Assembly (NCBI RefSeq): GCF_005576615.1
Contig: NZ_CP040332.1
Span: forward strand, 310,001 to 374,000
Reading direction: 5' to 3'
Origin: Natrinema versiforme
GTDB lineage: Archaea; Halobacteriota; Halobacteria; Halobacteriales; Natrialbaceae
Length of the DNA: 64,000 bases
The notes beneath the pieces are model-generated. The model did not search any database. It had not been told where the DNA came from and saw only the letters and a list, made by a program, of their open reading frames with translations. Positions 14,489-44,834 of the stretch are shown one piece after another (position 1 is the first letter of the stretch; every line of letters starts with the position of its first letter). The position numbers and the translations under genes were made by a program.

Positions 14489-14497
14489 GGGGTATCG

Positions 14498-14671
14498 TTA
14501 GCGTCTCACCGTCACTGGGTGGTCAGCGGCGATGAACGGCTCGTCGTCCTCGTCGGCGAAGGACAGCCCACCGCAGTCATTGCGACGGACGCGCCACGAC
14601 GGCAAATCGGGGATATCGTACTCCGCCGGGTCGCGGAAGGCTCCGGCGATCGCCCACTCTCGAGCGCGCAT
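14498..14671 (-). CDS. Small 57-residue protein inside the siderophore operon
   Basis: The ATG directly follows the TGA of binding-protein gene 2 (TGAATG), and the frame ends 9 bases before the next binding protein starts. It therefore fills the only gap between these genes. The sequence begins MRAREWAIAGAFRDPAEYDI and ends FIAADHPVTVRR. It is acidic, has haloarchaeal codon usage and one cysteine (NDCGG), and no signal peptide. I do not recognise the family. Perfect operon placement makes translation likely. Confidence 0.6.
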   Translation of the reverse strand: MRAREWAIAGAFRDPAEYDIPDLPSWRVRRNDCGGLSFADEDDEPFIAADHPVTVRR

Positions 14672-17046: not shown

Positions 17047-18221
17047 CGTTCGAATTCTCCGTTGATAATGTCCGCAACGCGATCGTAGTCGAAGAGGCGC
17101 TCATCCCCGTTCGACAGCGTTTCGAGACCGTTCCACTCTCCGAACGTCTCGGGGTAGAACTGCTTGGCGGCAGCTTCGGTCTGGAACAGGTTGATGATTG
17201 GTCCCTGATAGGAGGTTCCACCGCGATAGAGCCGATCGTTCTGGACGGCAGTGAGCCGTTTGCCGACCGGGTCTTCGCGCATGGCATCCATTCGCTGCTC
17301 GAACTGTTCGGTCGAGACGTGAGAAAACCCGTACTGGAACAGCAGCGCGTCCGGATCGATCTCGAGGAGCCGTTCGTAGTCCCACTCCGCGTAGCTCCCG
17401 TCGATCTCGTCGTCGAACGCGCCTCGCATCTCGAGGTCCCGGTACTGCTTGTGTCCGTTCCCGTCGTGAACCGGATAGGCGTAGAACGCACCCTTCTCGA
17501 AGTTCGAATTGATCGATAGCAGTCCGACGGTCGGTCGTTCCTCGTTCGGTGGTAGTTCGGACTGAATCTTTGAGAGGAGGCTTTCGTGAATCTCGTTGAG
17601 TGCCTCGTATCGCTCTCGTTGTTGAAATACATCGGCGATTACGTCGAAGGCCTCGTATAGCGAGTAGTACGGGTAGTCATGCCAGTCATCCCCGCGACGA
17701 CGAATCGAGTTGCCGACGATGGGGCCGATGCCGGTCGAGACTTCATCGAAATCTGCTGGCCCCCAACTGTCGTCGAGGACGCTGATGAAGTTCGGATCGA
17801 ACAGATGGACGTCGCTCTGGAGGTCGTAGAACGTCTCCTTATCGATTCCACCCTCACCCATGAGCTGCGGAACGTCGTCGAACGAGACATCGACGCCCGG
17901 AAGCACGTCGTAGAACGCGTTCGGCCAATTCTCCGTGTAGACGAGTCCCTGCAGGCCGTCGCGCTGGCCGAGTGCGATAGCCATGTCGGCATAGGTGCTG
18001 AAGTACGCCATCCACGTCTCGGGCACGGCGTCGAAGGAGACCTTGCCCATCGGGGCCATCGTCACCGTGTACGACTCACTACCGGTCATCTCGTCGCCGT
18101 CGCTCTGATCGGCTAGCTCCGAACAGCCGGCGAAGGAAACGCCGGCTGCGAGCGCGCCGCCGTATTTCAGCGCGTCTCTGCGAGTCGGCTCGCCGGTCGC
18201 GCTGTCGGTATTATCACTCAT
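17043..18221 (-). CDS. Siderophore/iron ABC transporter substrate-binding lipoprotein 4
   Basis: Protein of 392 residues. The ATG at 18221 (MSDNTDSATGEPTRRDALK) is preferred because it gives a Tat signal and a 4-bp overlap with gene 5; the frame extends further upstream only as an out-of-family shadow. Lipobox FAGC. Family landmarks are ADMAIALGQRDGLQGL, YYSLYEAFDVIADVFQQRERYEALNEIHESLL and VQNDRLYRGGTSYQGPIINLFQTEAAAKQFYPETFGEW. It is closer to proteins 1 and 5 than to 2 and 3 in its first half. Confidence 0.9.
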   Translation of the reverse strand: MSDNTDSATGEPTRRDALKYGGALAAGVSFAGCSELADQSDGDEMTGSESYTVTMAPMGKVSFDAVPETWMAYFSTYADMAIALGQRDGLQGLVYTENWPNAFYDVLPGVDVSFDDVPQLMGEGGIDKETFYDLQSDVHLFDPNFISVLDDSWGPADFDEVSTGIGPIVGNSIRRRGDDWHDYPYYSLYEAFDVIADVFQQRERYEALNEIHESLLSKIQSELPPNEERPTVGLLSINSNFEKGAFYAYPVHDGNGHKQYRDLEMRGAFDDEIDGSYAEWDYERLLEIDPDALLFQYGFSHVSTEQFEQRMDAMREDPVGKRLTAVQNDRLYRGGTSYQGPIINLFQTEAAAKQFYPETFGEWNGLETLSNGDERLFDYDRVADIINGEFER

Positions 18222-19381
18222 CGTTCGACCTCCCCGTTGACGATGTCTGCGACCACCTGTCGGTCGAAGAGTTGTTCGTCCCCGGTCACGGCCCCGAACT
18301 CGTCGGGGAACAGTTGCTTCGCCGCTCGCTCTGTCAGGAAGAGATTGTGAATCGGGCCCTGATTGAGGTAGCCGCCGCGGTAGACGCGCCCGTTCCGGAC
18401 GGCGGTGAGTTCGCTCCCGACGGGATGACTCTGCATATTGTCGAGAACGACGTCCCGGAACTCCGTGGCGGACTTTCGCTCGTGGCCCCGGATGAGAATC
18501 ACGTCGGGGTCGATCTCGAGCAGGTTCTCGTAGTCGAGTTTCCCGCGGTTCGTGGTGCTGAGATTGTCGGTGCCCGTCCCCGCGAGCGCGTCGTGGACGC
18601 CGAGATCCCGCCACTGTTTCTTGCTCGTCCCCCCGTCGTCGAGCCGGTACGGCGAGAACGTCTCCGGTTCGTCGGCCCCCTCGAACGTGAGGAAGACGGA
18701 CGGTCGGTCGTCAGCGGGCGGGAGTCGCTCCTGTATCGATGTGATGAACTCGGTGTGGAGTTCGCTGAACGCCTCGTAGCGCGCTCGCTGTTGGAACACC
18801 TCAGCGACTTTCTCGAACGCCTCGTACAGCGTGTAGTAGCGGTACTCGTGCCACTCGTCGGACCGACGAAAGATCAGGTTCCCGACGAACGGCGCGACGT
18901 TCGTCGCGATCTCGTCGACGTCTCCTTCGCCCCAGTCGAACCAGTTGACCAGCATCTGGGGATCGTACAGATGCACGTCGCTCTCGAGTTCGTAGAACTC
19001 CTCTTTGGTTCGGACCTCCGGATACTCCTCGAGGACGTCTTGATCGACCGTGACGCCGGGGAGGTCGTCGTAAACGTAGGTGTAGTACCGGTCCGCACCG
19101 CCGACACCGGCCAATCCGTCGGTCTGGCCCAGTGCGACGGCCATATCGGCGTACCCGCCGTCGTATGCGATCCACCGCTCGGGTACCTGGTCGAACGAGA
19201 CCGTCCCCATCGGTTCCATCGATACCGAGTACGATCCGTCCTCGGTCGTCTCGGTACCCTCAGCACCCTCCTGTCCGAGTAACTCCGAACAGCCCGCCAG
19301 TATTCCGCTGCCAACGGCCGTGCTGCCGTACGTCACGAAATCCCGCCGCGTCGGGCCTCCGCCTCTCGTTTCGTCTCCCAT
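18218..19381 (-). CDS. Siderophore/iron ABC transporter substrate-binding lipoprotein 5 (operon-first)
   Basis: Protein of 387 residues and the promoter-proximal gene of the five-gene array. Tat motif PTRRDFVTYGS and lipobox ILAGC. Landmarks include ADMAVALGQTDGLAGV, YYTLYEAFEKVAEVFQQRARYEAFSELHTEF and VRNGRVYRGGYLNQGPIHNLFLTERAAKQLFPDEF. Two iron boxes begin 6 bases upstream of the start codon, so the whole operon should be induced by iron shortage. No permease or ATPase gene belongs to this transcript; the nearest permease is the separate FecCD gene upstream. Confidence 0.91.
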   Translation of the reverse strand: MGDETRGGGPTRRDFVTYGSTAVGSGILAGCSELLGQEGAEGTETTEDGSYSVSMEPMGTVSFDQVPERWIAYDGGYADMAVALGQTDGLAGVGGADRYYTYVYDDLPGVTVDQDVLEEYPEVRTKEEFYELESDVHLYDPQMLVNWFDWGEGDVDEIATNVAPFVGNLIFRRSDEWHEYRYYTLYEAFEKVAEVFQQRARYEAFSELHTEFITSIQERLPPADDRPSVFLTFEGADEPETFSPYRLDDGGTSKKQWRDLGVHDALAGTGTDNLSTTNRGKLDYENLLEIDPDVILIRGHERKSATEFRDVVLDNMQSHPVGSELTAVRNGRVYRGGYLNQGPIHNLFLTERAAKQLFPDEFGAVTGDEQLFDRQVVADIVNGEVER

Positions 19382-19386
19382 CGTAC

Positions 19387-19404
19387 TTTTAGGCTTGCCT
19401 AAAA
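19387..19404. promoter_or_regulatory. Iron-box palindrome 2
   Basis: TTTTAGGCTTGCCTAAAA has 8-bp arms and a 2-bp centre and is the most symmetrical of the five boxes. It lies 6-23 bases before the ATG of binding protein 5, where it would cover the transcription start of a leaderless message. Confidence 0.8.
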
Positions 19405-19423
19405 CATAATAAGTCCACCGATT

Positions 19424-19439
19424 ATTAGGCCTGCCTAAA
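19424..19439. promoter_or_regulatory. Iron-box palindrome 3
   Basis: ATTAGGCCTGCCTAAA is 37 bp centre-to-centre from box 2, with an AT-rich ACATAATAAG stretch between them that probably holds the TATA element. Paired boxes flanking a promoter suggest cooperative repression. Confidence 0.75.
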
Positions 19440-21016: not shown

Positions 21017-21032
21017 TTTAGGTCTGCCTAAA
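21017..21032. promoter_or_regulatory. Iron-box palindrome 4
   Basis: TTTAGGTCTGCCTAAA lies 6-21 bases before the first ATG of the permease transcript, exactly like box 2 at the binding-protein operon. An AATACAAAA stretch follows on the far side. Confidence 0.78.
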
Positions 21033-21049
21033 ATACAAAACCATTCCGA

Positions 21050-21065
21050 TTTAGGCACACCTAAT
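21050..21065. promoter_or_regulatory. Iron-box palindrome 5
   Basis: TTTAGGCACACCTAAT is 33 bp centre-to-centre from box 4, repeating the paired arrangement seen at 19387/19424. The left arm is intact and the right arm has a final A-to-T change. Confidence 0.7.
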
Positions 21066-23526: not shown

Positions 23527-25566
23527 ATGAGTCGTGATGGGAAACAGTCAGTAAACGAGGTGATCGGAGCGGTCACCCGAGCGTTGATCCCGACCATCAC
23601 CACAAACGAAATGCGTCGACGCGTTTGCGAGCAGTTCGCAGCATCGGAGTTGTACTCCTTCGCGTGGATCGGGCGCTATAATCCGAAGACAGAGGCGATG
23701 ATTCCGACAGCCTCGGCCGGGATCGCGGAGCAGACGCTCTCTGAAGTCACCATCACCGAGGAGTCACCCCGAGCGGAACTGATAAACGAGGCAGTGCGGA
23801 CGCGGGAGATTACGGTCGGACGGAATCTCGTTGACGATCCGCCGTGCGAGGATCGGCGCGACCACGCCCTCGAACACGACTACCGAACTTTCGCGGTCGT
23901 CCCCCTCGGTTACGACGAGACGCTGTACGGTGCCTTGCATCTGGCTACCGATCGGCCGCACGGGTTTGGCGCGGCCGAGCGAGAATCGCTCGCAGAGAGC
24001 GGCGTAACGATCGCATACGCCTTCGAAAATGCGGAATCGTCCGCGAATACCGACGGCACCGAGCGCGAGGACGCGGCGGCAGAGACGACGAGAGTGCCCG
24101 TGCAGTCCGAGCGGGAGCGGCGGCTCTACGAGACGATCATCTCCAGTACACCCGACCTCGTCTACGCGTTCGACCTCGACTACCGCTTCATATTCGCCAA
24201 CGACGCACTGCTCGAGATGTGGGGCCAGACCTTCGAAGAGTCCGTCGGAAAGACCCTGCTGGAAAACGGCTACGAGCAATGGCACGCGGAGATGCACGAA
24301 CGCGAGATCGACCAGGTCGTAGAGACGAAAGAACCCGTCCGCGGCGAGGTGGCGTTCCAACACGCTGAGCACGGCCGCCGTATCTACGACTACATCTTTG
24401 CTCCGGTACTCAACGACGAGGGGGAAGTGGAAGCCATCGCCGGGACAACGCGCGATATCACCGAGCGCAAGGAGGTCGAGGAGGCGCTTCAGGAGAGCGA
24501 GGAGCGATTCCGGGCGTTGGTCGCCGCCAGCTCGGACGTCGTGTATCGCATGAGCCCCGATTGGAGCGAAATGCACCACCTCGAAGGCAAGGAGTTCATC
24601 CCCGATACGCACGAATCGACCAGCGAGTGGCTTGAGAGATACATTCATCCGGACGACCACGAGCGTGTCATGGAGGCCATCAACGAAGCGATCCGGACCA
24701 AGAGCGTCTTCGAACTAGAACACCAGGTAGAGCAGGTCGACGGGAGCCTGGGCTGGACGTTCTCGCGCGCGGTACCGATGCTGGACGAGGACGGTGATAT
24801 CACCGAGTGGATCGGGATGGCGAGCGACATCACCGACCGCAAAGAGTACGAGCGGGAACTCGAACAAACCAACGCGCAACTGAAACGCTCGAACGCGGAA
24901 CTCGAGCGATTCGCCCACGCCGCCTCCCACGACCTTCAAGAGCCGTTACGGATGGTCTCGAGCTATCTCCAGCTGCTCGAGAATCGCTACGGAGACGACC
25001 TCGATGCCGACGCGAGGGAGTTCATCGAGTTCGCTGTCGATGGCGCGGACCGGATGCGGGAGATGGTCGATGCGTTGCTCGAGTATTCACGGGTCAACAC
25101 CTGTAAGGAGAACTTCGAGCAGATCGACTGTGAGACGGTCCTCGAGGAGGCGATGGAGAACCTTCAGATGGCAATCGACGAACGCAATGCCATCATCACG
25201 TCGGACGAACTGCCCACTGTGAGCGGCGATGAACGCCAACTCATTCAGCTCTTCCAGAACCTCCTCGATAACGCTATCACGTATGCGGACGATGGCCCAC
25301 CGACCGTCCACGTTTCCGCCGAGAAGCGGGACGACGAGTGGCTGTTTTCGGTCCGCGACGACGGGATCGGGATAGCCCCGAAGAGGACGGACGACATCTT
25401 CGAGGTGTTCAACCGCCTCCACGCTCCCGACGAGTACGAGGGAACTGGTATCGGTCTCGCGATTTGCAAACGCATCGTGATGACGCATGATGGCCGTATC
25501 TGGGTCGAGTCCGACCCCGGCGAGGGAACGACGTTCTTCTTCACAATCCCGGATAACACGGAGTGA
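23527..25566 (+). CDS. Sensor histidine kinase (GAF-PAS-PAS-HisKA-HATPase)
   Basis: Soluble kinase of 679 residues with no transmembrane helix. Residues ~15-175 form a GAF-like domain (YSFAWIGRYNPKTEAM...FAVVPLGYDETLYGALHLATDR). Two PAS domains follow (~197-318 and ~325-447), each ending in a DIT(E/D)RKE linker. The HisKA helix has the phospho-histidine in AASHDLQEPLRMVSSYLQLLE, then N box NLLDNAITYA, G1 DDGIGIAP and G2 GTGIGLAICK. No response regulator is adjacent, which is usual in haloarchaea. The C-terminal third closely resembles the kinase at 45073-47487. Confidence 0.93.
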   Translation: MSRDGKQSVNEVIGAVTRALIPTITTNEMRRRVCEQFAASELYSFAWIGRYNPKTEAMIPTASAGIAEQTLSEVTITEESPRAELINEAVRTREITVGRNLVDDPPCEDRRDHALEHDYRTFAVVPLGYDETLYGALHLATDRPHGFGAAERESLAESGVTIAYAFENAESSANTDGTEREDAAAETTRVPVQSERERRLYETIISSTPDLVYAFDLDYRFIFANDALLEMWGQTFEESVGKTLLENGYEQWHAEMHEREIDQVVETKEPVRGEVAFQHAEHGRRIYDYIFAPVLNDEGEVEAIAGTTRDITERKEVEEALQESEERFRALVAASSDVVYRMSPDWSEMHHLEGKEFIPDTHESTSEWLERYIHPDDHERVMEAINEAIRTKSVFELEHQVEQVDGSLGWTFSRAVPMLDEDGDITEWIGMASDITDRKEYERELEQTNAQLKRSNAELERFAHAASHDLQEPLRMVSSYLQLLENRYGDDLDADAREFIEFAVDGADRMREMVDALLEYSRVNTCKENFEQIDCETVLEEAMENLQMAIDERNAIITSDELPTVSGDERQLIQLFQNLLDNAITYADDGPPTVHVSAEKRDDEWLFSVRDDGIGIAPKRTDDIFEVFNRLHAPDEYEGTGIGLAICKRIVMTHDGRIWVESDPGEGTTFFFTIPDNTE

Positions 25567-25727
25567 AAACGACAGAGGAGGGAAGATAACAGCGGAGATA
25601 AGACGAGAGAAGAGTGCGTGATCAATAGAGGGAGAGATCTAGATCTGTTAGTCGAGGATACACTTGATCGAGAATACTCCTCGTGATATCCGTCTCATCC
25701 ACGAGATGTGGAACTCTCTGCAAACGG

Positions 25728-26375
25728 ACGCCCCTCTATCGATGTGTCTCTCGAAGTGTCTCTCGAAATCGGCTTTCGCTCGAGACGGGATCGTTCGGAG
25801 ACGTTCCGGAGAGAGCGAATGGACCGCGACACAGACACCCCTCTATCGATGTGTTCTCTCTATAGGGAGAGACGGTATCCGGACGTCTGAGCGGATAGTC
25901 GATCGAGATGAAAATCGTTCAATCCGTATCGGCCCGGAAATCGTCTGATACGCCTGTTCAGACCGTCTCTCTCCTCGAGGAATTTCGTGAAGTGGAAAGG
26001 CAAGGGAAACGACAGACTCACTGCAGTTCGGAACACATCGAACACATCGATAGAGGGGTGTGTGAGTGTATCGTCTAGAAAGCTAGAAGAAAGGAAGCAA
26101 ACGGAATCACTCAAATACCCGTGATCGATGTCCTGACTGTTCTTCTCCTGAAATCTCTCGAGTCATCGTTCTTCTCGCAGTTTCGCTATCGAGCGTACCC
26201 CCTCCCGCTCGAGGGACCAAACACATCGATAGAGGGGTGTCTGTCTCGCGACGGACTCGATCCTCGAACACATCGTCAGTCGTCGTTGCTATCCCGACGA
26301 CGTCCCGTCTCAGCCGAGTCGAAATAGCGCATATCATCCACTCAATCGGAGAAATACACATCGATAGAGGTGGGG
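25728..26375. repeat. Replication origin A: five family-A origin boxes around a central spacer
   Basis: The consensus box is ACACATCGATAGAGGGGTGT. Reverse-sense copies are at 25728-25747 and 25835-25854. Forward copies are at 26042-26061, 26221-26240 and 26356-26375 (the last ends GAGGTGGGG). The G-rich ends therefore point away from the 187-bp spacer 25855-26041, the layout of archaeal origin recognition boxes around an unwinding region. An extra AACACATCG half copy directly precedes the box at 26042. The last box ends 23 bases before the orc1/cdc6 gene. Confidence 0.85.
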
Positions 26376-26398
26376 CAACATTTTTCTTTCTCCTCTGT

Positions 26399-27838
26399 AT
26401 GGATCACCGTATGGACGACTTCGACGATCCTCGAGATGGATCGGGGACATCGAAGGATGAAGCGACGGAGCGGGTCGAATCCTCGTCTGATTCTACGATA
26501 CCCGAGACGACTCCCTCCTCGACCGGCTCGGCGACGGCCGGTGAGTCACAATCGATCGAAGAGATGTTACTGGAGTTCGACCAACAGGAGGGGCTCATTC
26601 GCGATCGGTCGCTTCTCGACCCGAATCACATCGTCTCCGAGGATCGGATCGTCGGTCGCGACGAGCAGTTACAGGAAGTAACCAAGATGCTCCGCGTCGC
26701 TCTCGGGGACAACCGGCCGCCCAATCTCTTTCTCTACGGCCCCTCCGGAACCGGAAAATCGCTGATCACGAAGGCCGTCTGTAAGAACATCAGCAAAATC
26801 TGCGAGACGCGAGACATTCGGTTCGGGACGATCGAAGTCAACTGCCAGGATCTCGATACCCTCGGCGTCGCCGTCTACGAACTCGCGAGTCGCGCGGCGG
26901 ACGAAGCGGCCGTCGAGGTACAGGTCCCGAAACACGGCGTCGCGACGAAAGAGAAGTGGGACGAACTCTATCGGATCGTCAACGAAAACTTCGACTCGGC
27001 AGTGTTCGTTCTCGACGAACTCGACATGCTCGTCGGCCGACGGGACAAGCAGGACCCAGCCTTCTCCCGTCTCCTCTATCAGCTCTCTCGAGCCGGCGCG
27101 AACAACGACCTCACTGCTCACGTCTCCGTCGTCGCGATTTCGAACGACACGAAAATGATGGAGTCCGTGGGGAGCCGCGCCCTGAGTTCCTTTACCCCCG
27201 AAGACGTCCACTTCGACGACTACGACGCGAACCAGCTCCAGTCGATTCTCCGTCGCCGGCGAGACGCCTTCTACGACGACGTTCTGGACGAGGACGTTAT
27301 CCCGCTGGCAGCGGCCTTCGCGGCCCAGACCCACGGCGACGCTCGCAAGGCGATCGATCTCGTTCGAGTCGCCGGTGAACTCGCGGAACGCGAAGGCGAC
27401 GAGCGCGTTCGCGAGGAACACGTCCGCGAAGCACAGGACAAAGTCGAGAAGAATCGGGTCCTCGAGGTCGTCCGCGGTATCAGCACACAGAAGAAGCTTT
27501 GTCTCTACGCGACGGCCGCCGTCGCTTCGGAGACGGACGACGAATCCGCTCGCAGCACGACTGGCTACCGCGTGTACCAGTTCCTCACGGATGCGATCGA
27601 CGCCGAACAGTACCATCAGGAGACCTACGTCAACAAGATGAAGGAAATGACGACGTACTCGCTCGTCGACTTCGAACGGCGGAGCCACGGCCCCAGTTCG
27701 GGGATGTTCCTCGAGTTCCAGTTCGGAGAGCGTCCCGAGACGATCCTCGAAACGCTTCGCGAGGATTCGCGCCTCGAAATGGTCTCCGTGGACGAGGTCT
27801 CGAGCGTCGTCAAAGCACAGGTTCGAAACGAGACGTAA
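26399..27838 (+). CDS. Orc1/Cdc6 replication initiator A
   Basis: AAA+ initiator of 479 residues that binds origin boxes and loads the MCM helicase. The ATG at 26399 follows an AT-rich CATTTTTCTTT element; the ATG at 26411 (MDDFDD) is an alternative. After a ~75-residue acidic N-terminal tail come the IVGRDEQL box, Walker A YGPSGTGKSLITK, Walker B VFVLDELDML, sensor 1 VVAISND and sensor 2 HGDARKAIDLVRVAGE, then a winged helix. The motifs all look intact. It lies within the family-A boxes and presumably recognises them. Confidence 0.95.
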   Translation: MDHRMDDFDDPRDGSGTSKDEATERVESSSDSTIPETTPSSTGSATAGESQSIEEMLLEFDQQEGLIRDRSLLDPNHIVSEDRIVGRDEQLQEVTKMLRVALGDNRPPNLFLYGPSGTGKSLITKAVCKNISKICETRDIRFGTIEVNCQDLDTLGVAVYELASRAADEAAVEVQVPKHGVATKEKWDELYRIVNENFDSAVFVLDELDMLVGRRDKQDPAFSRLLYQLSRAGANNDLTAHVSVVAISNDTKMMESVGSRALSSFTPEDVHFDDYDANQLQSILRRRRDAFYDDVLDEDVIPLAAAFAAQTHGDARKAIDLVRVAGELAEREGDERVREEHVREAQDKVEKNRVLEVVRGISTQKKLCLYATAAVASETDDESARSTTGYRVYQFLTDAIDAEQYHQETYVNKMKEMTTYSLVDFERRSHGPSSGMFLEFQFGERPETILETLREDSRLEMVSVDEVSSVVKAQVRNET

Positions 27839-27851
27839 GTCGTTGTTCGTC

Positions 27852-28112
27852 GGGCCCCGCTATCGATGTGTTTCTCCGCGGTCGCCATCGTTGTCGTCCA
27901 ATCCGGAAAGGTGAGTACAGTCGTCTCATCTCAGTACACACCGTTATCGATGTGTGATCTTCGGTTTGATGTCCTGATAGACGGAAAATATGGAGTTTGG
28001 AAATTCAATCCGATACGGATACCTATCCTCGATTATCGCCAGTTCGGGGAGTCTCTCGTTTCTCATCACTTTCTCAATTATTGAGAAATTAGACACACCT
28101 CTATCGAAGTGT
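27852..28112. repeat. Family-A origin boxes downstream of orc A
   Basis: Three more reverse-sense copies lie at 27852-27871 (divergent left end GGGCCCCGC), 27936-27955 (ACACACCGTTATCGATGTGT) and 28093-28112 (identical to the outlying copy at 23291). The 137 bases between the last two are clearly AT-rich and include a perfect 19-bp dyad at 28070-28088, so this side could equally be the unwinding region. Confidence 0.8.
28070..28088. other. AT-rich perfect dyad beside an origin-A box
   Basis: TTTCTCAAT-T-ATTGAGAAA has 9-bp arms around one base, five bases from the box at 28093. It could be a hairpin, a protein-binding dyad, or part of the duplex unwinding element. There is no U-run, so a simple terminator is less likely. 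Confidence 0.6.
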
Positions 28113-28374
28113 TTCCGTCCCCAGCCGACAGCAGTGGCTGTCAAGAGAAAAATAGGAAAAGAACAGCGGACAGAGTGGTGTTAACTTCGAGTGTGATACG
28201 CACAGCCATTGTTCAAAGAAAGGCGAGAGTATACTACATCGTTATATCTGATATGTGCTCATCGATGGAACCCTCATTTCTATTAGATATCTAACAGCGT
28301 CGTAAACAGTTACGGATACTGGATCCGCACCCAGATAAAATAGAGTACAGGAGGTATGAGATTGGATTTTACTC

Positions 28375-28390
28375 CGGACATGGTGGTGTG
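28375..28390 (+). repeat. Isolated origin-B box downstream of orc B
   Basis: CGGACATGGTGGTGTG, followed by GGG, matches the family-B box set at 29758-30335. It lies 63 bases beyond the stop of the orc B gene, so family-B boxes flank that gene on both sides, like family A around orc A. Confidence 0.75.
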
Positions 28391-28452
28391 GGGTTCGTAG
28401 AAGTGACTCACTCGGTAGGTGGGGATTCTGATATTGGAATTAGTAATCTGAA

Positions 28453-29712
28453 TTACTGAAATTCGGCTAATGACGTATTTTCGTCGGTCGTATCGCCATC
28501 GAGTAAGTGCTCTTGAATGGAGTCGTGGATACCGACGTCGTCGAGGACCTCATCGAGTGCCGACAGGATGAGTTCGATGTCCATATCGAGTGTATACTCG
28601 CGATACGTTCCCCCGCGTCGGCCCTCGTTTCGTTCGGTGACCGAGACGAGTCCGAGCATGGCCAGTTCCGCCAGATGATCGCGCATCCGGCGCGGAACAA
28701 GCGGGTCCCGCCCGGCTCGCTGTGCGAAGTTGGTGTACCGGGGCCGGACGTCTCGTGAACGGACCGGAGTCTCGTTTTGGAGATGCAGCGTGAGCAGGGA
28801 GTACAACACGAGATGACCGTGCTGAGTGAGTCCGCTGATCCCCTCTTCGATCCGGCCGCGTTCCAGATCGTGACGGCCTGCCTCTACGTGGGTTTCGGCG
28901 ACGGTCGTCGTCTCGGCTTCCTCGCGAGCGAGATCGCCGGCTTTCATCAGGAGGTCGATCGACTGGCGAGCGTCGCCGGCGTCTTTCGCACCATAGGCGG
29001 CACACAGCGGGATCACTGCATCGTCGAGGACGTCGTCGTGAAACGCGACCGCCGCCCGCTGCTCGAGGATTTTCTGCAGATCGCTCGCGTCGTACGCGGG
29101 GAAATGGATCTCCTGTTCACAGAGCGAACTCTTTACCTTTGGGGAGAGGTCGTCTCGAAACGAGAAATCGTTCGAGATACCGATAATCCCAATTTTCGCT
29201 TCGGAGAGGTTATTGTTCGCACGCGCTCGCGGAAGCTGATAGAGGATCGAGTCGTCTTCGACGTGGTCGACTTCGTCCAGAACGATGAGATTGGTCCCGC
29301 CGAGATCGTCGAGGTCGTCCCAGAGCATCTCGTAGACCGTCGCTCGCGGGTAGCCGGTCGTACTGATCTGATTCGTTTCGTCTCGGAGTTCGTTGACCAG
29401 ACGCGTCGCGATCTGATACGAGGACGTGAGGCCGTCGCAGTTGAGGAAGGTGAGCCGGAGATCGATATCGTCGTACTGACTGGCGTCTTCCTCGAGGTGG
29501 GAAAGCAAATATCTGGTTGCGGCGGTCTTTCCGACGCCGGTCTTGCCGTAGAGAAAGACGTTGTTCGGTTGTTCGCCGTTGATCACGGGCTGGAGCGCAG
29601 CCTGATACATCTGGATTTCTTCGTCGCGACCGACGAGTTGCGCCGGTTGGTAATCCTCCCGCAGCGCGTCGCGATTCCTGTAGATTTCGGTGTCTCGTTC
29701 GAACAGGCTCAT
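28453..29712 (-). CDS. Orc1/Cdc6 replication initiator B
   Basis: AAA+ initiator of 419 residues. It starts MSLFERDTEIYRNRDALREDYQPAQLVGRDEEIQ, the short N-terminus typical of plasmid-type haloarchaeal Cdc6 proteins. Walker A is YGKTGVGKTAATRYL, Walker B LIVLDEVDHVEDD, sensor 1 IGIIGISND and sensor 2 AGDARQSIDLLMKAGD. The C-terminal winged helix is complete (MRDHLAELAMLGLVSVTERNEGRRGGTYREYTL). It points away from its origin boxes, which begin 46 bases upstream of the start beyond a GTTTTATAAACC TATA element, so self-regulation by box binding is plausible. Confidence 0.95.
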   Translation of the reverse strand: MSLFERDTEIYRNRDALREDYQPAQLVGRDEEIQMYQAALQPVINGEQPNNVFLYGKTGVGKTAATRYLLSHLEEDASQYDDIDLRLTFLNCDGLTSSYQIATRLVNELRDETNQISTTGYPRATVYEMLWDDLDDLGGTNLIVLDEVDHVEDDSILYQLPRARANNNLSEAKIGIIGISNDFSFRDDLSPKVKSSLCEQEIHFPAYDASDLQKILEQRAAVAFHDDVLDDAVIPLCAAYGAKDAGDARQSIDLLMKAGDLAREEAETTTVAETHVEAGRHDLERGRIEEGISGLTQHGHLVLYSLLTLHLQNETPVRSRDVRPRYTNFAQRAGRDPLVPRRMRDHLAELAMLGLVSVTERNEGRRGGTYREYTLDMDIELILSALDEVLDDVGIHDSIQEHLLDGDTTDENTSLAEFQ

Positions 29713-29757
29713 TCGGACTGTCTCTGGGAGTGTGTCTCTCGGCAGGGTTTATAAAAC

Positions 29758-30335
29758 CACACCGTCCGGAGTGTCCGCAGTTCTTCTCACTTATATCAAA
29801 CCGAGGAACACACCCACCCCACTGTGTCCGCAGTAATAGGTCTACGAGAGGGGGATGGTCTCAGACGACCATCTAGACTACAGAAGTTTTAATGCAATCT
29901 ACTGAGAGCTAGTCCAAATGGCAACTATAGTTGATATTTCAGATCAGGCATGGTCTGAAATATATTCTCGCAGATCAGGCCACCCCCGTTCGTCCGGAAG
30001 AACAGCGGACATGGTGGGGTGGGTGTGTCGGCTTCCGTAATCGACCGGCAGCGGGATCGGATTGCTTCGTCTCTTTCCGCCGCTGTCTGCCTATACCGTC
30101 CGATTGACTGGTCTCTTCGGACTGAGCTCTCCGAGTAGCAACGGTGCCGACTCCGTTCTCTTACACCACGATGTCCGCTGCTCTTGGTTCGCTTCTTCCC
30201 CATGGAACAGCGGACATCGTGGTGTCAGTCCGTCCACTCTACTCCTTGCGAGTTACGTTACCTCGGAGCACCCCACACCACCGTGTCCGTTGTTATTTTG
30301 ATATTTCGATCGAAAACTGCGGACATGGTGGTGTG
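29758..30335. repeat. Replication origin B: seven family-B origin boxes in inverted pairs
   Basis: The core is GCGGACATGGTGGTGTG. Reverse copies are at 29758-29780 (variant), 29809-29834, 30163-30180 and 30271-30294. Forward copies are at 30002-30028, 30206-30225 and 30316-30335. The two copies nearest the spacer 29835-30001 carry an extended end (GGGGTGGGTGTG) and mirror each other. The spacer is AT-rich with a 10-bp hairpin, so it is the best candidate unwinding region. The right-hand copies form two further inverted pairs. Confidence 0.85.
29934..29963. other. 10-bp hairpin in the candidate unwinding region of origin B
   Basis: ATATTTCAGA (29934-29943) and TCTGAAATAT (29954-29963) are perfect inverted arms around a 10-base loop. 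A CAGATCAGGC direct repeat occurs at 29940-29949 and 29971-29980. Structure of this sort inside the box-free spacer is consistent with an initiator-remodelled element. Confidence 0.6.
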
Positions 30336-30531
30336 ATGTCGACAGAACCGACCTTCCTAACTCCGTTGCACCGCTCATCCACCGCCGACACTCGCTTTCG
30401 CGAGCCTCGAGCCCGAGTCATCATCTCGGTCCGACCTCGATCCGATCACGCGTCCACGGCTAGACGCTCTATCGCACTTTCGATGTATGGAGGGACCGTT
30501 CCCGTAATCAACCTCTGTATCGGTTTATGGG

Positions 30532-30557
30532 TTAGGCTAATTCGTTAGGCTAACTGG
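30532..30557. repeat. Two-unit satellite of the 13-bp repeat family
   Basis: TTAGGCTAATTCG and TTAGGCTAACTGG follow each other head to tail with no spacer. They are the clearest matches to the 13-bp repeat found in bulk at 42623-43510, 12 kb away. They lie between origin B and the end of the TPP-enzyme gene, with a GGTTTATGGG element just before them. Confidence 0.75.
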
Positions 30558-30670
30558 AATGTGGTCGGACGTAGTTCTCACTGGTTTCCGATGCCGGACT
30601 CACCCGCTTCGAGTTCTCGAGCGAACGGAAACAGGAACTCAGAGCGAAACCGAATTGCTTCCGTCGACGC

Positions 30671-32398
30671 TCAGAACTTCACGCTCGAGTCGTACTCGGA
30701 AACGTCGGCAGCTGTTGGCTCGTCCGGATCGACGCGAACGTCGATCAGTTCCGGTCCGTCCGCTCGTGCCAGTGCAGTATCGACTGCGCTCTCGAGTTCC
30801 GAGAGCGTCCTCACAGTCTCGCCCCGACAGCCGAATCCCTCCGCGATGGCGGCGAACTCGGGAGACGACCAGTCGAACCGATGCCCCTCTGCATACTGAT
30901 CGATTTCCGGCGACTTACTGATGACTCCGTAGTCCTGGTTGTTGAAGAGGATCGTGACCACGTCTAGGTCGTACGCCGCCGCCGTATGCAGCTCCTGTAA
31001 GCACATCATCGCCCCGCCGTCACCGGTCAACGCGACGACCGGCCGATCCGGCACGGCGAGTTTCGCGCCGATCGCAGCCGGTAGTCCGACGCCCATTCCC
31101 GCCCACGACCCGGAAGTAACGTACGCCTCGGGTTCGTACGTCTCGAAGGTCTGCTTGGCCCAGAGACGGAAGCCGCCGATATCGGTCGTCACAACGGCCT
31201 CTCGCGGCAACACCTCGCGAAGCGTCCGGAGCGCGCCGGCCGTCGCGATCGGCGTCTCGTCCTCGAGCAAGCTGCAGGCACGAAGCCGGTCGTCGTACTC
31301 CGAGCGAACGCGGTCGCCGATGGACGCCCCGTCCCAAGCGGTGTCGGGACGCGACGCAGAACGGAGTCCCGCTCGTAGCCGATCGACCGCGCTGGCGACG
31401 TCCGCAACGATCGCGATATCGGCGTCGTAGGCGATGTCGATGCGACTCGTCTCGAGGGTAACGTGAACGAGTTCGTCACCCATCGGCAGCGACCAGTCGG
31501 CGGTCGTCACGCCGTCGAACCGGGTGCCGAGCGCGAGGACGACGTCGGCAGCCTCGAGGGTCTCGTTCGCTCCTGACGGGAGATGACTGCCCGTGACACC
31601 GAGCCAGCGCGGATCGTCCTCGGGGAAGACGCCCTTTCCTTTGTAGGACGCGACGACCGGCGCGTCCAGCGTCTCAACGAGGGCCCGAATCGCGTCCGGG
31701 TCTCCCGTTCGGCGGGCACCGACGCCGAGGTAGACGACCGGTCGCTCCGCGTCGGCGAGCAGTTGCTTTGCGTCTTCGTACTCGGCGTCGCCGCCGAAGC
31801 GACTCGTCTGCGGATCGATCGTTACGGCCGGTGAGCGGAACTCGGCCTCGAGGAGGGACTTCGGAACGCCGAGCCGGACCGGTCCGCGCGGGGGTGTGAG
31901 TGCGGTTTCGATCCCCGAACGGATCGCCTGCTGGAACTCGACCGGCCGCTCGACCGAGACGTTCTCCTTGACGACGGTGTCGTACGTCTCGGGTTCGATT
32001 TCGTGGATCGGCCCCTTCCCGCGGTCGGCCGGATCGGCGTCGGCGGCGACGTGGATCAGTGGAACGCGGTCGTCGAGTGCGTTCTTCAACCCGTGCATCG
32101 CGTTCGTGTCGCCGGGGCCGGGGACGGTAAGCGTCGCGGCGACCTCACCTCCAGACTCGTAGTATCCCCATGCGATGTGCGGGATCGCCGTCTCGTGGCG
32201 CGCCATCACGTATCGAATGTCCTCTCGGCGCTCGACGGTACGATCTAACGGGAGCGTCTGCGTCCCGGGGAGCCCGACGAGGAGGTCGACCCCGGCGTCA
32301 ACGAGGGCATCGTACAGTTGCTCACTGCCGGGTTGGGCCGGCGGACCGTCTCTGTTCCAGGCATCGCTCTCGAGTCTGATTGGAGCGACACAGCGCAA
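30671..32398 (-). CDS. TPP-dependent enzyme, acetolactate-synthase-like
   Basis: Protein of 575 residues with the three-domain layout of the acetolactate synthase/benzoylformate decarboxylase superfamily. The N-terminal pyrimidine-binding domain has the activating glutamate in MARHETAIPHIAWGYY. The central domain has VVYLGVGARRTGD. The C-terminal PP-binding domain has LTGDGGAMMCLQELHTA...NNQDYG, the GDG-x(n)-NN cofactor motif. It is not accompanied by a small regulatory subunit, so it is more likely a catabolic or unassigned family member than the biosynthetic IlvB. The first ~22 residues fit the family poorly and the start may lie further in. Confidence 0.85.
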   Translation of the reverse strand: MRCVAPIRLESDAWNRDGPPAQPGSEQLYDALVDAGVDLLVGLPGTQTLPLDRTVERREDIRYVMARHETAIPHIAWGYYESGGEVAATLTVPGPGDTNAMHGLKNALDDRVPLIHVAADADPADRGKGPIHEIEPETYDTVVKENVSVERPVEFQQAIRSGIETALTPPRGPVRLGVPKSLLEAEFRSPAVTIDPQTSRFGGDAEYEDAKQLLADAERPVVYLGVGARRTGDPDAIRALVETLDAPVVASYKGKGVFPEDDPRWLGVTGSHLPSGANETLEAADVVLALGTRFDGVTTADWSLPMGDELVHVTLETSRIDIAYDADIAIVADVASAVDRLRAGLRSASRPDTAWDGASIGDRVRSEYDDRLRACSLLEDETPIATAGALRTLREVLPREAVVTTDIGGFRLWAKQTFETYEPEAYVTSGSWAGMGVGLPAAIGAKLAVPDRPVVALTGDGGAMMCLQELHTAAAYDLDVVTILFNNQDYGVISKSPEIDQYAEGHRFDWSSPEFAAIAEGFGCRGETVRTLSELESAVDTALARADGPELIDVRVDPDEPTAADVSEYDSSVKF

Positions 32399-32551
32399 TA
32401 AATACCGTCGGTCGTTCTCGATTAACTGCTCGGCTCATCACGAAAACGGTCATCGTCGAGACGATCGGCGGCCGTTGAGGCGGCCGGCGGCGAGATATTC
32501 GTTCACGGGAAGACGAACCCGTCGAAGCCACTGGCTTTTCGGACCGACCGG

Positions 32552-34807
<2,256 letters not shown>

Positions 34808-34881
34808 TATCGTCTCGAGTGTCTCCGGCCGACCGATAAAAGTGTGCGGTTGCGCTCAATTGTTCCCATCTATGTGAAATA

Positions 34882-35259
34882 ATAGGTTAGAAATGACCGC
34901 AAACGTTGCGACAGCCACCAGAGAAACAGTTCGGATATCATCCGAAAATGAGTCGGCCCTATTTTGGTGTCACTGCCGATATTTAACCACCTCGTCGACT
35001 CTCGTAGCGGCCCTCGAGTCTCGGTTGTGGATCTCGAGGCGAGACCATGGAGCGGACTCACTCGAGAGCGGGAGACGGATGTCGACCACATCGAACGGAT
35101 CGTTGACGGAGTCCTCACTCGATGAATCAATCCTCCAGACGCTGTGTTAGACTGATACAAGCAAGAGACGTCCGATGAGAACAGCAGGATGACTCGAGAT
35201 ATACACCGAACGTAACGCTGACCGTTTATATTGAACTGGAGCTTATCCCGTCGTAGCAG
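34882..35259. other. Intergenic stretch left of origin C
   Basis: About 380 bases between the malic enzyme promoter and the first origin-C box. No reading frame with convincing composition is seen on either strand. AT content rises toward the origin. Confidence 0.4.
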
Positions 35260-35896
35260 ACACACCCCTCGTTGCCGCTGTATAGCTGCTTGAAATTGCT
35301 TCTACCGACTGAAGTCCTGAGATGTAATTATCCGGCTGATCTAGCTGTCAGTTTGTGAGGAAGGAATGCCGAGTTACCATTACGATTAAATACTAGTGCT
35401 TCAAAACGACCACTAAGTGAATTGAACGCAAAATCGTTCAAGCGGTATTGAACGCAGATTTCTGCTCGAGACGAACTGTACCGCAACTTTCTCGGTCTAA
35501 TTTCTGCTGTCACGCTGTTTTTCATTGGGTCCTACGGTCGCCGGACTGTTTCAACTTGCGTGGACCATCGGATCGTTACAGCGGCAACGAGGGGTGTGTG
35601 TCTCCTAATACAGCGGCACTCCGCACTCACTACTGTTCGAATGAGCGTATCTCTTCCCTATATCCGAATCTATACAGCGGAAATGCGGTGCGTCTTCTCA
35701 TTTCCGATCCTGTTTTGATCAGCACCACTGGGAACTCTGAGTTCAACTCGTATACAGCGGCATTCCGGGGTGTCGATGATCTATACAGCGGAATTTCGGG
35801 GTGGCGTTGATCCCAATACAGCGGCACTCCGGGGTGTAACTCGCGACCAATAGCGACTCACACCCTTGAATTACCATCCATACAGCGGCAACTCGG
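35260..35896. repeat. Replication origin C: eight family-C origin boxes
   Basis: The core is TACAGCGGCACTCCGGGGTG. One reverse copy lies at 35260-35284. Forward copies begin at 35577 (with CAACGAGGGGTGTGTGT), 35609, 35671, 35751, 35782, 35816 and 35880; those at 35609 and 35880 lack the G-rich end. The 292-bp spacer 35285-35576 is AT-rich and contains ATTGAACGCA twice, so it is the probable unwinding region. The last box is 44 bases before the orc C start. Confidence 0.87.
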
Positions 35897-35940
35897 CTCC
35901 GAACGTTTATGCCAGATGAGTGTGACGTGCCATCAAGCGA

Positions 35941-37140
35941 ATGTCGGGCCCGACCAACTATTTCGGAAGTGAAAATGAAATCTTCCAAAACAAGGAGTTG
36001 TTGCAAGTTTCTCATCTACCGGATGGTGATCGAATCATCGGTCGCGAAGATGAACTCACAAATTTAGCGAACGCGATCAAGCCTGCGACGCGTGGGAATA
36101 CGCCGAACAATGTCCTCGTCTACGGAAAAACGGGAACTGGAAAATCTCTTTGTTCGAAGTTCATCACGAATCAGGCTGTGAATCAGGCCGCAAGCAATGA
36201 TATCTCGATTGGTGTCGCCTATATCGATTGTTTGCAGGAATCAACGGAAACGCAGGCCGTCCAATCTATCGGTTATCAACTGAACGAGCCGACGAAAACT
36301 GACGTATCAATTCCTCATTCCGGTCTTAGTACATCGGAATATTATCGCCGCCTCTGGCGAATTGTTGACGACCGGTACGATGTTGCCCTGATAATCCTCG
36401 ATGAAGTCGACAAGATTGAGGACGACGACATTCTTATGCAACTCTCTCGAGCGGTTGAGTCGGGGAAACTCACCAAAAGCACAATTGGCGTGATCGGGAT
36501 TTCGAATAAGGTTCGGTACAAGGAGTCCCTTGACGAGCGAATCAAGTCGAGTCTCTGTGAGCGCGAATATGTCTTCTCACCATATGATGCGAATCAGATC
36601 CGAGAGATACTACATTCGCGGTCTGATGCCTTTCATGAAGGTGTCCTCGATGAAGCCGTTATCCCTCGAGTAGCTGCACTCGCTGCTCGCGAGCATGGTG
36701 ACGCGCGAAAGGCGATCGACATTTTCAGATTTGCTGGAGAGATTGCCGAGGAAAATGATCACGATGCCGTCGCTGAGGAATGCGTTGAACAGGCCCATGA
36801 ACGTGAGGAAACCAGCCGTCTCGCTGAACTAATCTCGAAGAGTCCGAGCCATGCGAAACTGGTGCTTGAAGCAATGGCCTTCTTGTCTCAACAGAAAGGT
36901 GGCGATGATGCACCGATCACGACCAACGAAGTGTTTGATCTCTATAAGAGCCTCTGCGACCGTGATGGCTCTGACCATATCAAACTGCGCCGTGTTCGCG
37001 ATATTCTGTCTGAGCTTGAATTCCTATCGATAATTAAGCAAGAGCGTAAATGGGCGGGGAAGGGCAAAGGGAACTATATGGAGAACAGATTGATTGACGA
37101 TCCACAGGTCATTATCGCTGCTTGTAACGAATCTGAGTGA
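35941..37140 (+). CDS. Orc1/Cdc6 replication initiator C
   Basis: AAA+ initiator of 399 residues. Motifs: IIGREDELTNLANAIKP, Walker A YGKTGTGKSLCSKF, Walker B LIILDEVDKIEDDD, sensor 1 IGVIGISNK and sensor 2 HGDARKAIDIFRFAGE. The winged helix is at ~310-390 (ITTNEVFDLYKSLCDRDGSDHIKLRRVRDILSELEFLSIIKQ). Codon use is noticeably more A/T-rich than that of neighbours (many AAT, GAT, TCT), which suggests a different replicon or host as its source. It has its own box family directly upstream, and a dead IS6-type transposase lies just after it. Confidence 0.95.
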   Translation: MSGPTNYFGSENEIFQNKELLQVSHLPDGDRIIGREDELTNLANAIKPATRGNTPNNVLVYGKTGTGKSLCSKFITNQAVNQAASNDISIGVAYIDCLQESTETQAVQSIGYQLNEPTKTDVSIPHSGLSTSEYYRRLWRIVDDRYDVALIILDEVDKIEDDDILMQLSRAVESGKLTKSTIGVIGISNKVRYKESLDERIKSSLCEREYVFSPYDANQIREILHSRSDAFHEGVLDEAVIPRVAALAAREHGDARKAIDIFRFAGEIAEENDHDAVAEECVEQAHEREETSRLAELISKSPSHAKLVLEAMAFLSQQKGGDDAPITTNEVFDLYKSLCDRDGSDHIKLRRVRDILSELEFLSIIKQERKWAGKGKGNYMENRLIDDPQVIIAACNESE

Positions 37141-42528: not shown

Positions 42529-42622
42529 GAGGGACTCCTCGAGCGGGCTCGCGTTCGGATCGAGCGAGAGTGAGGACTCGATCCCCCGACGGAGTTCATA
42601 GCGTTCTGTTTCGGTTATTCCT

Positions 42623-43510
42623 GTAGCCTATCCAGACAGGCTAACTGATCAGCCTAATTCATTAGCCTTCCTTGTAAGGTGGTCCCTCTCTCCGAACCAG
42701 CTGCTTCCGAAGCTATCGATCGGCGACTCCGGGTGCGCGTTCTGCAGGAACTCGAGCAGCGAGCGTTACCGAAGAGCGAGGATTGTGTCCCGGTCCATGA
42801 CCGATCGAATCAGCCGATTCAGATGCGCGGACTCGCCCACCCATCGAGACCTCCTGTTCTCTCGGCGAGTTGGGTCCCTCGTTCGCATCGATCGGTGCTT
42901 TCGACGTGAGCACCGATCAAACGTGCACTCGATCGCGAGTACAACGATTAGGCTATCTCGTTAGGCCAACTAGTTATGCTTCCGAGTAGGGTTGGTTAGC
43001 AATCTGCTACCGCTGGCACACCGATGCAGCCTACCCGATTCGATTTCCCTGATCGAAATGCCTGTTGGGATAGGTAGGCAGGCCTGGCTGTTAGGCTTCA
43101 AAGTTAGTCCCACTGGTTAGGTCAGCTAGCTATTCTGGCTGGCCCGTCTGCATTTCGATTAGGCCTACTGAATAGGCCAACCGAACGGACTTCTCGAGCC
43201 GAGGGCCGGGTACGAACCCTCTCTGTGGGCTACTCCGTTAGTCTCCCCAGTCGGCCTAACCGAATAGGTGGGCCGAATAGCCTATTTAGAACCCCTTCCT
43301 CGGGCCCTCGGTTAGCTTCGTCGAGCCTGCCGACTGCTACTCCTCTCCGTGTAGGCTACTCGGCTTTACCCGTCTGTCTCTGCCCTCATCTTCCGGCTGG
43401 CGGGGCAACTGCTTGCCAAACCCACTAGTTAGTTAGTCTAACTGGTTGGCCTAACTCAATGGCCTACTGAGTGCGTATGGTGAAGTATTATATTCGGGAA
43501 GGCTAACTAA
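42623..43510. repeat. Array of degenerate 13-bp phased repeats upstream of the ParA operon
   Basis: Non-coding DNA holding many 13-bp units of form T-T-A-G-G/C-C-Y-A-A-C-T-N-R, arranged head to tail without spacers. Clear runs are 42623-42674 (4 units), 42948-42999 (4), 43078-43142 (5), 43159-43184 (2), 43225-43289 (5) and 43433-43471 (3), plus single units at 43351 and 43498. Runs one and two keep the same 13-bp register across the gap (325 bp, 25 units). A period of 13 excludes coding. The last unit lies between the TATA element (43484-43495) and the ATG of the ParA gene. Confidence 0.8.
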
Positions 43511-43515
43511 CTCGT

Positions 43516-44358
43516 ATGCTCACATATACGACCTACTCGGAGGCGGGCGGCGTCGGCAAGTCGACGATCGGTGCGGCGCTGCTCGAGGCTCACGCCAATC
43601 ACGGACTCGACGTGCTCGCGATCGATATGGACCAGCAAAACGGCTCGCTCACCTACCTCCTCGACGTCGACGCTCCCCGCGACGACAGTCAGGCGGATAA
43701 CATCGTTCGACACCTGATCGACCGACCGAAGGGTCCGCTCGAGGATCTCATTCACGAAACCGAATCCGGCTTCGATCTCCTCCCGAGCCACAACATGCTC
43801 GAGAACCTCGAGGATCTGCTCAATCGCGCACAGCAGATGGCCGACGATCTCGGCGAGGGCGACGACTTCGATCCCTACGACCGACTTCGGCAGGTGCTCC
43901 TCGAGTCCAGCATCCCACAGGAATACGACGTGATCGTCGTCGATCCCCCGGCCACCGCGGGCCCCCACCTCTACAACGCCGTGTCGGCCACACGGAGCTT
44001 AGTGATCCCGGTCGAGCCCACCGGCAAGGGAATGCAAAGCGTCCTCGGGTTAGAAGAGCTCGTCGACGGCCTCGAGGATCGACTCGAAGCCGAGATCGGT
44101 GTCCTCGCGGCCGTCCCGAACGGCGTCGGCCGAACGTCCGATCAGGAGCGGTACCTCACGGAGATCCGTGATCGGGGCTATCCCGCCCCGGTTGCGATCC
44201 GCGAGCGATCGTCGCTCTTCGAAGGCTGCTGGGATCAACAGTGTACCCCGCGACACTACGTCGAGGAATACCGCGACCGGCAGCGCGACCACGAGATGGA
44301 AACGCTCGAGAAGATCGATCAGTTGGCGACGGAGATCGAGGAGGTCGACGACCGATGA
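43516..44358 (+). CDS. ParA/MinD-family partition ATPase
   Basis: Protein of 280 residues. The P-loop is SEAGGVGKSTIGAALLEAHA at residues ~8-27. The signature lysine before GGxGK in classical ParA (KGGVGKT) is replaced by alanine, as in several haloarchaeal paralogues. Switch motifs are LAIDMDQQNGSLTYLL and VIVVDPPATAG. The gene follows a 0.9-kb repeat array and overlaps the next gene by 4 bp (ATGA). A role in segregating this replicon, with the array as centromere and the partner as adaptor, is the simplest reading but is inferred. Confidence 0.9.
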   Translation: MLTYTTYSEAGGVGKSTIGAALLEAHANHGLDVLAIDMDQQNGSLTYLLDVDAPRDDSQADNIVRHLIDRPKGPLEDLIHETESGFDLLPSHNMLENLEDLLNRAQQMADDLGEGDDFDPYDRLRQVLLESSIPQEYDVIVVDPPATAGPHLYNAVSATRSLVIPVEPTGKGMQSVLGLEELVDGLEDRLEAEIGVLAAVPNGVGRTSDQERYLTEIRDRGYPAPVAIRERSSLFEGCWDQQCTPRHYVEEYRDRQRDHEMETLEKIDQLATEIEEVDDR

Positions 44359-44834
44359 AGAAGGGCTCCGGGAGCGATCCGTTCGCGGAGGTCCAGGAGG
44401 AAGCCGAATCGGAACCGGACGCGAACGAAGAGCAGGCCGTCGACGACGAGTCCGATTCCGAACCGGCCCAGCCGGTCACTGAAGACATCGACTCTCAAGC
44501 GGAGTCCGAGACGGATGGCGATCAGAACGAGGAGACTACCGCCGACTCGAGCGAGGCGGTCATCGGAGAGCCGCCCCAAAACGGTGCTGACGACGGCGGC
44601 GTTCCGTGGGTTTACGTCCGGGATACGGTCAAGCAGGACCGCGAGATGGTCCAGTTCTATCTCCGGGATTACGTCGTCGACGCGGAGGACGATTTCGTCG
44701 ATGCGGTCAGCGACCGACTCGGGACCGACGTTTCGAAGACCGACGTTCGGGAAGCGGCCTACGAGGCGGCGATGCACAACGTCGACGAAGTCGTCGACCG
44801 ACTCGAGGCGTGGGGCTTCGAATCGGAGGACTGA
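44355..44834 (+). CDS. Acidic partner of the ParA-like ATPase (candidate centromere-binding protein)
   Basis: Protein of 159 residues from the ATG at 44355 inside the ParA stop. Residues 1-80 are disordered and extremely acidic (ESEPDANEEQAVDDESDSEP...). Residues ~85-159 are a compact helical domain (VPWVYVRDTVKQDREMVQFYLRDYVVDAEDDFVDAV...KTDVREAAYEAAMHNVDEVVDRLEAWGFE). I do not recognise a named family and see no ParB nuclease-like motif. Position and coupling suggest an adaptor between ATPase and DNA repeats. Confidence 0.8.
   Translation: MKKGSGSDPFAEVQEEAESEPDANEEQAVDDESDSEPAQPVTEDIDSQAESETDGDQNEETTADSSEAVIGEPPQNGADDGGVPWVYVRDTVKQDREMVQFYLRDYVVDAEDDFVDAVSDRLGTDVSKTDVREAAYEAAMHNVDEVVDRLEAWGFESED

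Follow-up and report, generated by a model that had tools for sequence, protein, structure and literature searches.

The window analysed here, a stretch of 64,000 nucleotides of Natrinema versiforme (G000:C4:310001-374000), lies on C4, a contig of 413,865 bases in a genome of five contigs and 4,674,473 bases. C4 is taken to be a plasmid because of its size and because relatives are filed as such. The features relevant to this study are an orcA-orcB block with two predicted origins, a parA operon with an upstream repeat array, and a small satellite of that array beside origin B (Table 1). The ORB-like repeats of origin A overlap the very start of the longest orcA frame, whose start codon is uncertain, as most relatives align from about residue 47. 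Those of origin B have a consensus near GCGGACATGGTGGTGTG, and the last one ends about 190 bp before the satellite. The region 23527-37140 holds three orc1/cdc6 genes within 11 kb and ORB-like repeats of two different types. Elsewhere in the window, positions 13355-19381 carry on the minus strand at least four, perhaps five, consecutive Peripla_BP_2 frames, some of which overlap, followed by a FecCD permease and a HEAT-repeat protein. Two TTAGGnnnGCCTAA-like palindromes each stand at 19389-19438 and 21019-21064, just upstream of periplasmic-binding-protein and FecCD permease genes. These are probably DtxR-type iron boxes, and they are distinct from the repeat unit described below although both contain TTAGG.

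Table 1. Features of the window around the satellite pair and the parA operon (window coordinates).
Feature	Position	Strand	Remarks
ORB-like repeats ACACATCGATAGAGGGGTGT, predicted origin A	25724..26250	.	upstream of orcA
orcA, Orc1/Cdc6 initiator	26237..27838	+	TIGR02928 427.2 bits
orcB, Orc1/Cdc6 initiator	28453..29712	-	TIGR02928 432.8 bits; Pfam Cdc6_lid/Cdc6_C
ORB-like repeats, predicted origin B	29808..30343	both orientations	inverted and direct repeats, upstream of orcB
Satellite pair	30531..30554	.	palindromic units GTTAGGCTAAT, GTTAGGCTAAC, 13-bp period; tandem score 37.3 against a null of at most 15.9
TPP-dependent enzyme (acetolactate-synthase-like)	30671..32398	-	3' end borders the pair
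Main array, probable centromere	42622..43507	.	clusters of 1-4 units at 13-bp spacing
Promoter-proximal unit, probable operator	43497..43507	.	gap of 52 bp to its neighbour; immediately precedes the parA ATG
parA, Walker-type partition ATPase	43516..44358	+	Pfam AAA_31, CbiA; phrog_164 ParA-like
Partner, probable site-binding protein	44355..44834	+	start overlaps the parA stop (ATGA)

The satellite pair, formed by two 11-bp palindromes, is intergenic, with origin B on one side and the TPP-enzyme gene's 3' end on the other. The first-pass annotation had described it as two consecutive 13-mers, and both are present as exact matches (TTAGGCTAATTCG at 30532-30544 and TTAGGCTAACTGG at 30545-30557). 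Their "head to tail" order carries no strand meaning, since the unit is an 11-bp palindrome, GTTAGNCTAAC, recurring every 13 bp; a strand-specific direct repeat was rejected for the same reason. The same annotation had placed the pair 12 kb from the main array and beside origin B. The first array unit (42622) proved to lie 12,065 bp away, and the ORB-like repeats do lie between orcB and the pair, the origin itself being predicted. The exact degenerate pair, TTAGGCTAANTNG twice in succession, occurs once in the 4,674,473-base genome, and the reversed pattern does not occur. A repeat model was trained on 158 sites that precede parA at 34 related loci, with the window and its 99% sister excluded. 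Its consensus was the same palindrome with Y-R on the flanks, which emerged outside the model seed, at 13-bp recurrence. With this model, trained without the window array, the pair reached a tandem log-odds score of 37.3 bits, while the null maximum was 15.9 in the reversed replicon and 15.7 in 20 Markov-1 resamples of the 414-kb replicon. The satellite pair is real and specific. Tandem Repeats Finder reported neither the pair nor the array.

The array upstream of parA is, from its sequence and position, probably a centromere. Its clusters are separated by gaps of about 50-300 bp, and its period-13 autocorrelation has a z of 5.4. A 13-bp phasing across the whole array was considered and dropped, because the window array, with multiples of 13 at four of its six gaps, was not matched in this by three others. 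The 52-bp gap before the last unit is present in all four arrays analysed, and as the unit at 43497 directly precedes the parA start, it is likely to be an autoregulatory operator. ParA matches Pfam AAA_31 (64.1 bits), CbiA and the ParA-like phrog_164 (105.3 bits), with scores under the NCBIfam equivalog cut-offs, and its closest named relative is from Natrinema versiforme JCM 10478 (99%). With a Walker-type ParA, a partner gene in the operon and a repeated cis site adjoining it, the locus has the make-up of a ParABS-like system. The partner, of 159 residues, combines an acidic, low-confidence N-terminus with a conserved C-terminal domain of about 75 residues, and has no Pfam, NCBIfam or PHROG family match. 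Among 36 parA loci examined, L078 was removed as a spurious match. In all 35 remaining relatives an ORF with the partner's C-terminal domain lies downstream of parA, and in 33 at least one tandem pair of at least 18 bits lies within 2.6 kb upstream, a count that is partly circular because the model was trained on 34 of the same loci. The two without such a pair in that interval are L063 and L066.

The full-length model of the partner was set aside, its fold matches being meaningless, and a model of the C-terminal domain was used (pLDDT 82; helices 24-41, 47-59 and 62-71). The top VIA-align matches were the ribbon-helix-helix (RHH) proteins TraM (Z 4.6, rmsd 2.6, 51 aligned) and CopG (Z 4.5, rmsd 1.5, 42 aligned), with all Z under 5, and Foldseek gave no match with E below 0.001. 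At the level of a suggestion, the modelled fold would thus be RHH. In RHH proteins a beta strand is joined to two helices, and the dimer contacts DNA through the strand. No Pfam match to a ParB or HTH domain was found in the window partner up to E 5. ParB was also absent among the 25 of 32 Pfam families listed for 30 partner members, and a profile of these 30 partners against solved chains gave no SegB among the matches listed, up to E 5.

Several observations on related loci were made alongside. In Halorubrum (L061-L067), the repeats upstream of parA, read by eye, look shifted towards GTTGTACT, and the predicted DNA-reading strand segment of the partner is HKTIHYT instead of MVQFYLR; here, site and protein have possibly changed together. 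In Natrialba asiatica, a strong satellite (41.9; L053:13772-13795) lies about 2.9 kb downstream of parA. On the 4.19-Mb contig G010:C1, a ParA-array module and a satellite lie 52 kb apart (near 1214482 and 1267120; L103, L104), so the ParA-array system also occurs on a chromosome-sized replicon. A second ParA of the present genome (L195, 52%; G000:C3 near 372339-373368) has a weak site-like pair (18.2) just downstream, and its own centromere motif probably differs.

Scanning C4 with the tandem model recovered the array and three satellites, at 24145 (28.2), 118318 (42.7) and 340531 (37.3, the pair under study). On a control replicon of the same genome (400 kb scanned) the best scores were 18.7 and 18.2, and on two plasmids the reversed sequence scored up to 20.9 and 20.8. 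Less certainty therefore attaches to satellites near 20-25 bits, while the studied pair stands at 37.3. All five fully scanned plasmids carry one array at parA and 2-5 satellites: three on G000:C4, two on G053:C2, two on G011:C4 (omitting a 17.3-bit match under the reversed-sequence maximum), three on G021:C3 and five on G022:C5. Outside the arrays of these plasmids there are 26 pairs of neighbouring sites within 60 bp, and 19 of them are spaced by exactly 13 bp. None of the 19 distinct satellites with called gene context overlaps a called gene (two sets of 10 contexts, G011:44547 being in both); the context came from our own gene caller, which was checked against annotated records for G053 and G021. 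An apparent avoidance of single sites was dropped, since they are fewer than in reversed DNA but the rarity of TAG/CTAG explains this equally well.

With up to 3 mismatches, four pair places were found in the own genome, all on C4. The first-pass annotation would have been refuted by many pairs scattered evenly through the genome and unrelated to origins; this was not found, the genome's pairs being few and confined to this replicon. Across the genus, palindromic pairs at the same tolerance occur in 14 of 29 genomes at 41 places, against two places for the reversed pattern. For 40 of the 41, a ParA of at least 71% identity is encoded on the same contig; the single exception, G025:C62, is another contig of a draft genome. 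Sorted by ParA identity, places are present in 13/13 genomes at 89% or more, in 1/4 at 71% and in 0/12 below. For satellites alone, the contrast is 9/13 versus 0/12 genomes (P=3.5e-4). The same orcA type is found in seven of the 12 pair-free genomes lacking close ParA, so the site follows ParA and not the initiator. A wider pattern search gave matches in 22 of 119 genomes, including G063, G070, G039 and G066 outside the genus, together with 14 reversed-pattern matches, and single weak matches therefore prove little.

The pair persists inside diverged flanks. In alignments anchored on the pair, identity between G000 and G025 is 83% over its 24 bp, with 30% and 25% in the 100-bp flanks. G000 and G021 are 71% identical in the pair, with 25% and 17% in the flanks; these ungapped flank values understate similarity where indels occur. 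Gapped alignment and blastn still returned the pair as a separate island, 39 bp at 79%, and the orcA-side pairs of G021, G011 and G015 follow the same pattern, with the pair kept and the flanks diverged.

In 11 replicons with orcA and ParA on one contig, satellites flank the orcA-orcB block in six, and the array itself abuts orcA in two (G001 and G009, about 250 bp away). On the fully scanned G022 plasmid no site lies near orcA, and in G003 and G017, covered by pattern search only, none was found near it. On the TPP side of the block, a pair is also present in G025 and G021, which share the TPP-enzyme neighbour. On the orcA side, upstream, pairs are found in G021, G011 and G015, and in G023 at 2.8 kb. 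Placement at the block thus varies by species, without a single conserved position. The four orcA plasmids scanned in full carry 13 satellites, of which 4 fall within 3 kb of the block, where 0.30 would be expected (P=1.6e-4; P=0.015 at 1.5 kb and 8.6e-4 at 5 kb), with thresholds chosen after inspection and the plasmids' shared ancestry uncorrected. No matching orc gene lies near the C4 satellites 24145 and 118318, beside any of the five on G022, or near those of G053 (0/2), G010, G027, G017, G025:C62 and G011:44547. G013, with an orcB at 95% and no close ParA, has no pair in the 20 kb covered there. The origin link is enriched, not universal. Of the earlier proposal that the array is a centromere and the pair ties it to the origin region, one part therefore stands: the array has the appearance of a centromere, its site recurs in the pair, and satellites flank the orcA-orcB block above random expectation. 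As a general rule the link was rejected, because 24145, 118318 and the satellites examined on G022, G053, G010, G027 and G017 have no orc neighbour.

On balance, the pair is rather likely to be a secondary centromere: a parS-like nucleation site of minimal size, through which the partition complex would reach the origin. In this mechanism, the protein encoded directly downstream of parA would bind GTTAGNCTAAC as a dimer, and two adjacent dimers 13 bp apart would form the smallest stable complex. The main array would then amount to about seven such clusters in a row, and the satellite to one cluster alone. Once occupied by the partner, a satellite may load ParA and so turn the origin region into cargo of the ParA ATPase. 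By bridging to the main array 12 kb away, it could let newly replicated origins be captured by the partition machinery. The pair would act on segregation, not on replication.

Replication control through the same partner is the main rival, and we consider it unlikely. Bound beside the ORBs, the partner would modulate initiation, by competing with or remodelling Orc1/Cdc6 binding or by coupling the origin to the array, and thereby affect copy number and not segregation. The short distance from the pair to the last ORB-like repeat and the enrichment of satellites at orcA-orcB agree with this, but most satellites lie a long way from a matching orc gene, there is no overlap between sites and ORBs, and the sites occur on either side of the block, some more than 2.5 kb off. 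A precedent exists in Vibrio cholerae, where the origin of chromosome II contains a 39-mer that inhibits replication; ParB2 spreads into this element, which is stated not to be a centromere, and also binds it directly (PMC3688505). The likeness is a centromere-binding protein with a second site beside an origin, binding here being predicted; the V. cholerae case differs in its bacterial ParB and RctB initiator.

It is less probable still that the partner is a dispersed transcriptional regulator, with each satellite an operator for its neighbouring gene. In its favour are the intergenic location of the satellites, several of them 100-300 bp upstream of a called gene or flanked by divergent ones, and the likeness of the conserved site just before parA to an autoregulatory operator. 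Against this, neighbouring genes are unrelated between plasmids. At the studied pair, no start codon is likely to adjoin: it follows the 3' end of the TPP-enzyme gene, and the orcB start is 819 bp away on the far side of the ORBs. The first-pass suggestion that it regulates a nearby transcript is therefore weak. Functionless relics of earlier array positions or rearrangements would account for the turnover of satellite positions between species, yet they are very improbable given pairs kept at 71-83% identity between anchored flanks of about 17-34%, the exact 13-bp spacing, and satellites on five of five fully scanned plasmids. Finally, a chromosomal regulator site unrelated to parA, such as a DtxR-type iron box, could be imagined from the TTAGGCxxGCCTAA palindromes upstream of iron-transporter-like genes in the window, but is hardly credible, since the TTAGG/CCTAA halves are spaced differently from those iron-box-like sites, par-type pairs are absent from 12/12 genus genomes lacking close ParA, and G000's other replicons hold no pairs at up to 3 mismatches.

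Read as a secondary centromere, the satellite pair can be set beside several known systems. Bacterial ParA proteins also work with small RHH centromere-binding proteins, such as ParG and omega of pSM19035, on centromeres of 7-bp repeats. The present system resembles these in a small partner, putatively dimeric and RHH-like, encoded after parA, in short tandem repeats overlapping the promoter and in several sites per plasmid. It differs in being archaeal, in its 13-bp palindromic units and in satellites that lie tens to more than 100 kb off and beside Orc1/Cdc6 origins. The IR1-4 sites of N15 are dispersed over the plasmid and the KorB operators of RK2 are comparable, both being bound by HTH ParB-type proteins. 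In the prophage-plasmid N15, IR1-4 are separate centromere sites (PMC7205306). N15 and RK2 KorB share with C4 the use of separate single sites for one centromere-binding protein on one plasmid, and differ in having no large array and no link to an archaeal origin.

The nearest archaeal parallel, by analogy, is SegAB of the Sulfolobales, in which a ParA-type ATPase works with an RHH protein that recognises a palindrome in front of its operon and at scattered replicon sites (PMC12284271, PMC5120986). Common to both are a ParA-type ATPase, a candidate RHH-like partner (here a predicted binder), and a palindrome upstream of the operon and elsewhere on the replicon. SegB uses a chromosomal 13-bp palindrome with the motif TCTAGASTCTAGA and the core AGASTCT, and 83.7% of its palindromes lie inside genes (PMC12284271). 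Unlike those of SegB, the sites described here have the unit GTTAGNCTAAC, form 13-bp tandem clusters, are intergenic and mostly on megaplasmids, and the SegB motif TCTAGASTCTAGA is not found in them. A literature search found no publication on the array or its satellites, with most subscription journals outside its scope.

Beyond the single pair, a broader picture may tentatively be drawn, in which haloarchaeal megaplasmids would carry single-cluster satellites beside Orc1/Cdc6 origins and one RHH-like protein would couple the origin to the main centromere. Such a dispersed-centromere architecture would link replication and segregation, and individual sites would change place within a neighbourhood that is itself kept. 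A review lists among its open questions multi-replicon segregation in halophilic archaea, the form of archaeal centromeres, clustered or dispersed, and coordination with replication (PMC5120986). With a centromere motif, a candidate for the protein that binds it and a defined set of satellites, of which some adjoin predicted origins, the locus makes these questions testable in haloarchaea that can be cultured.
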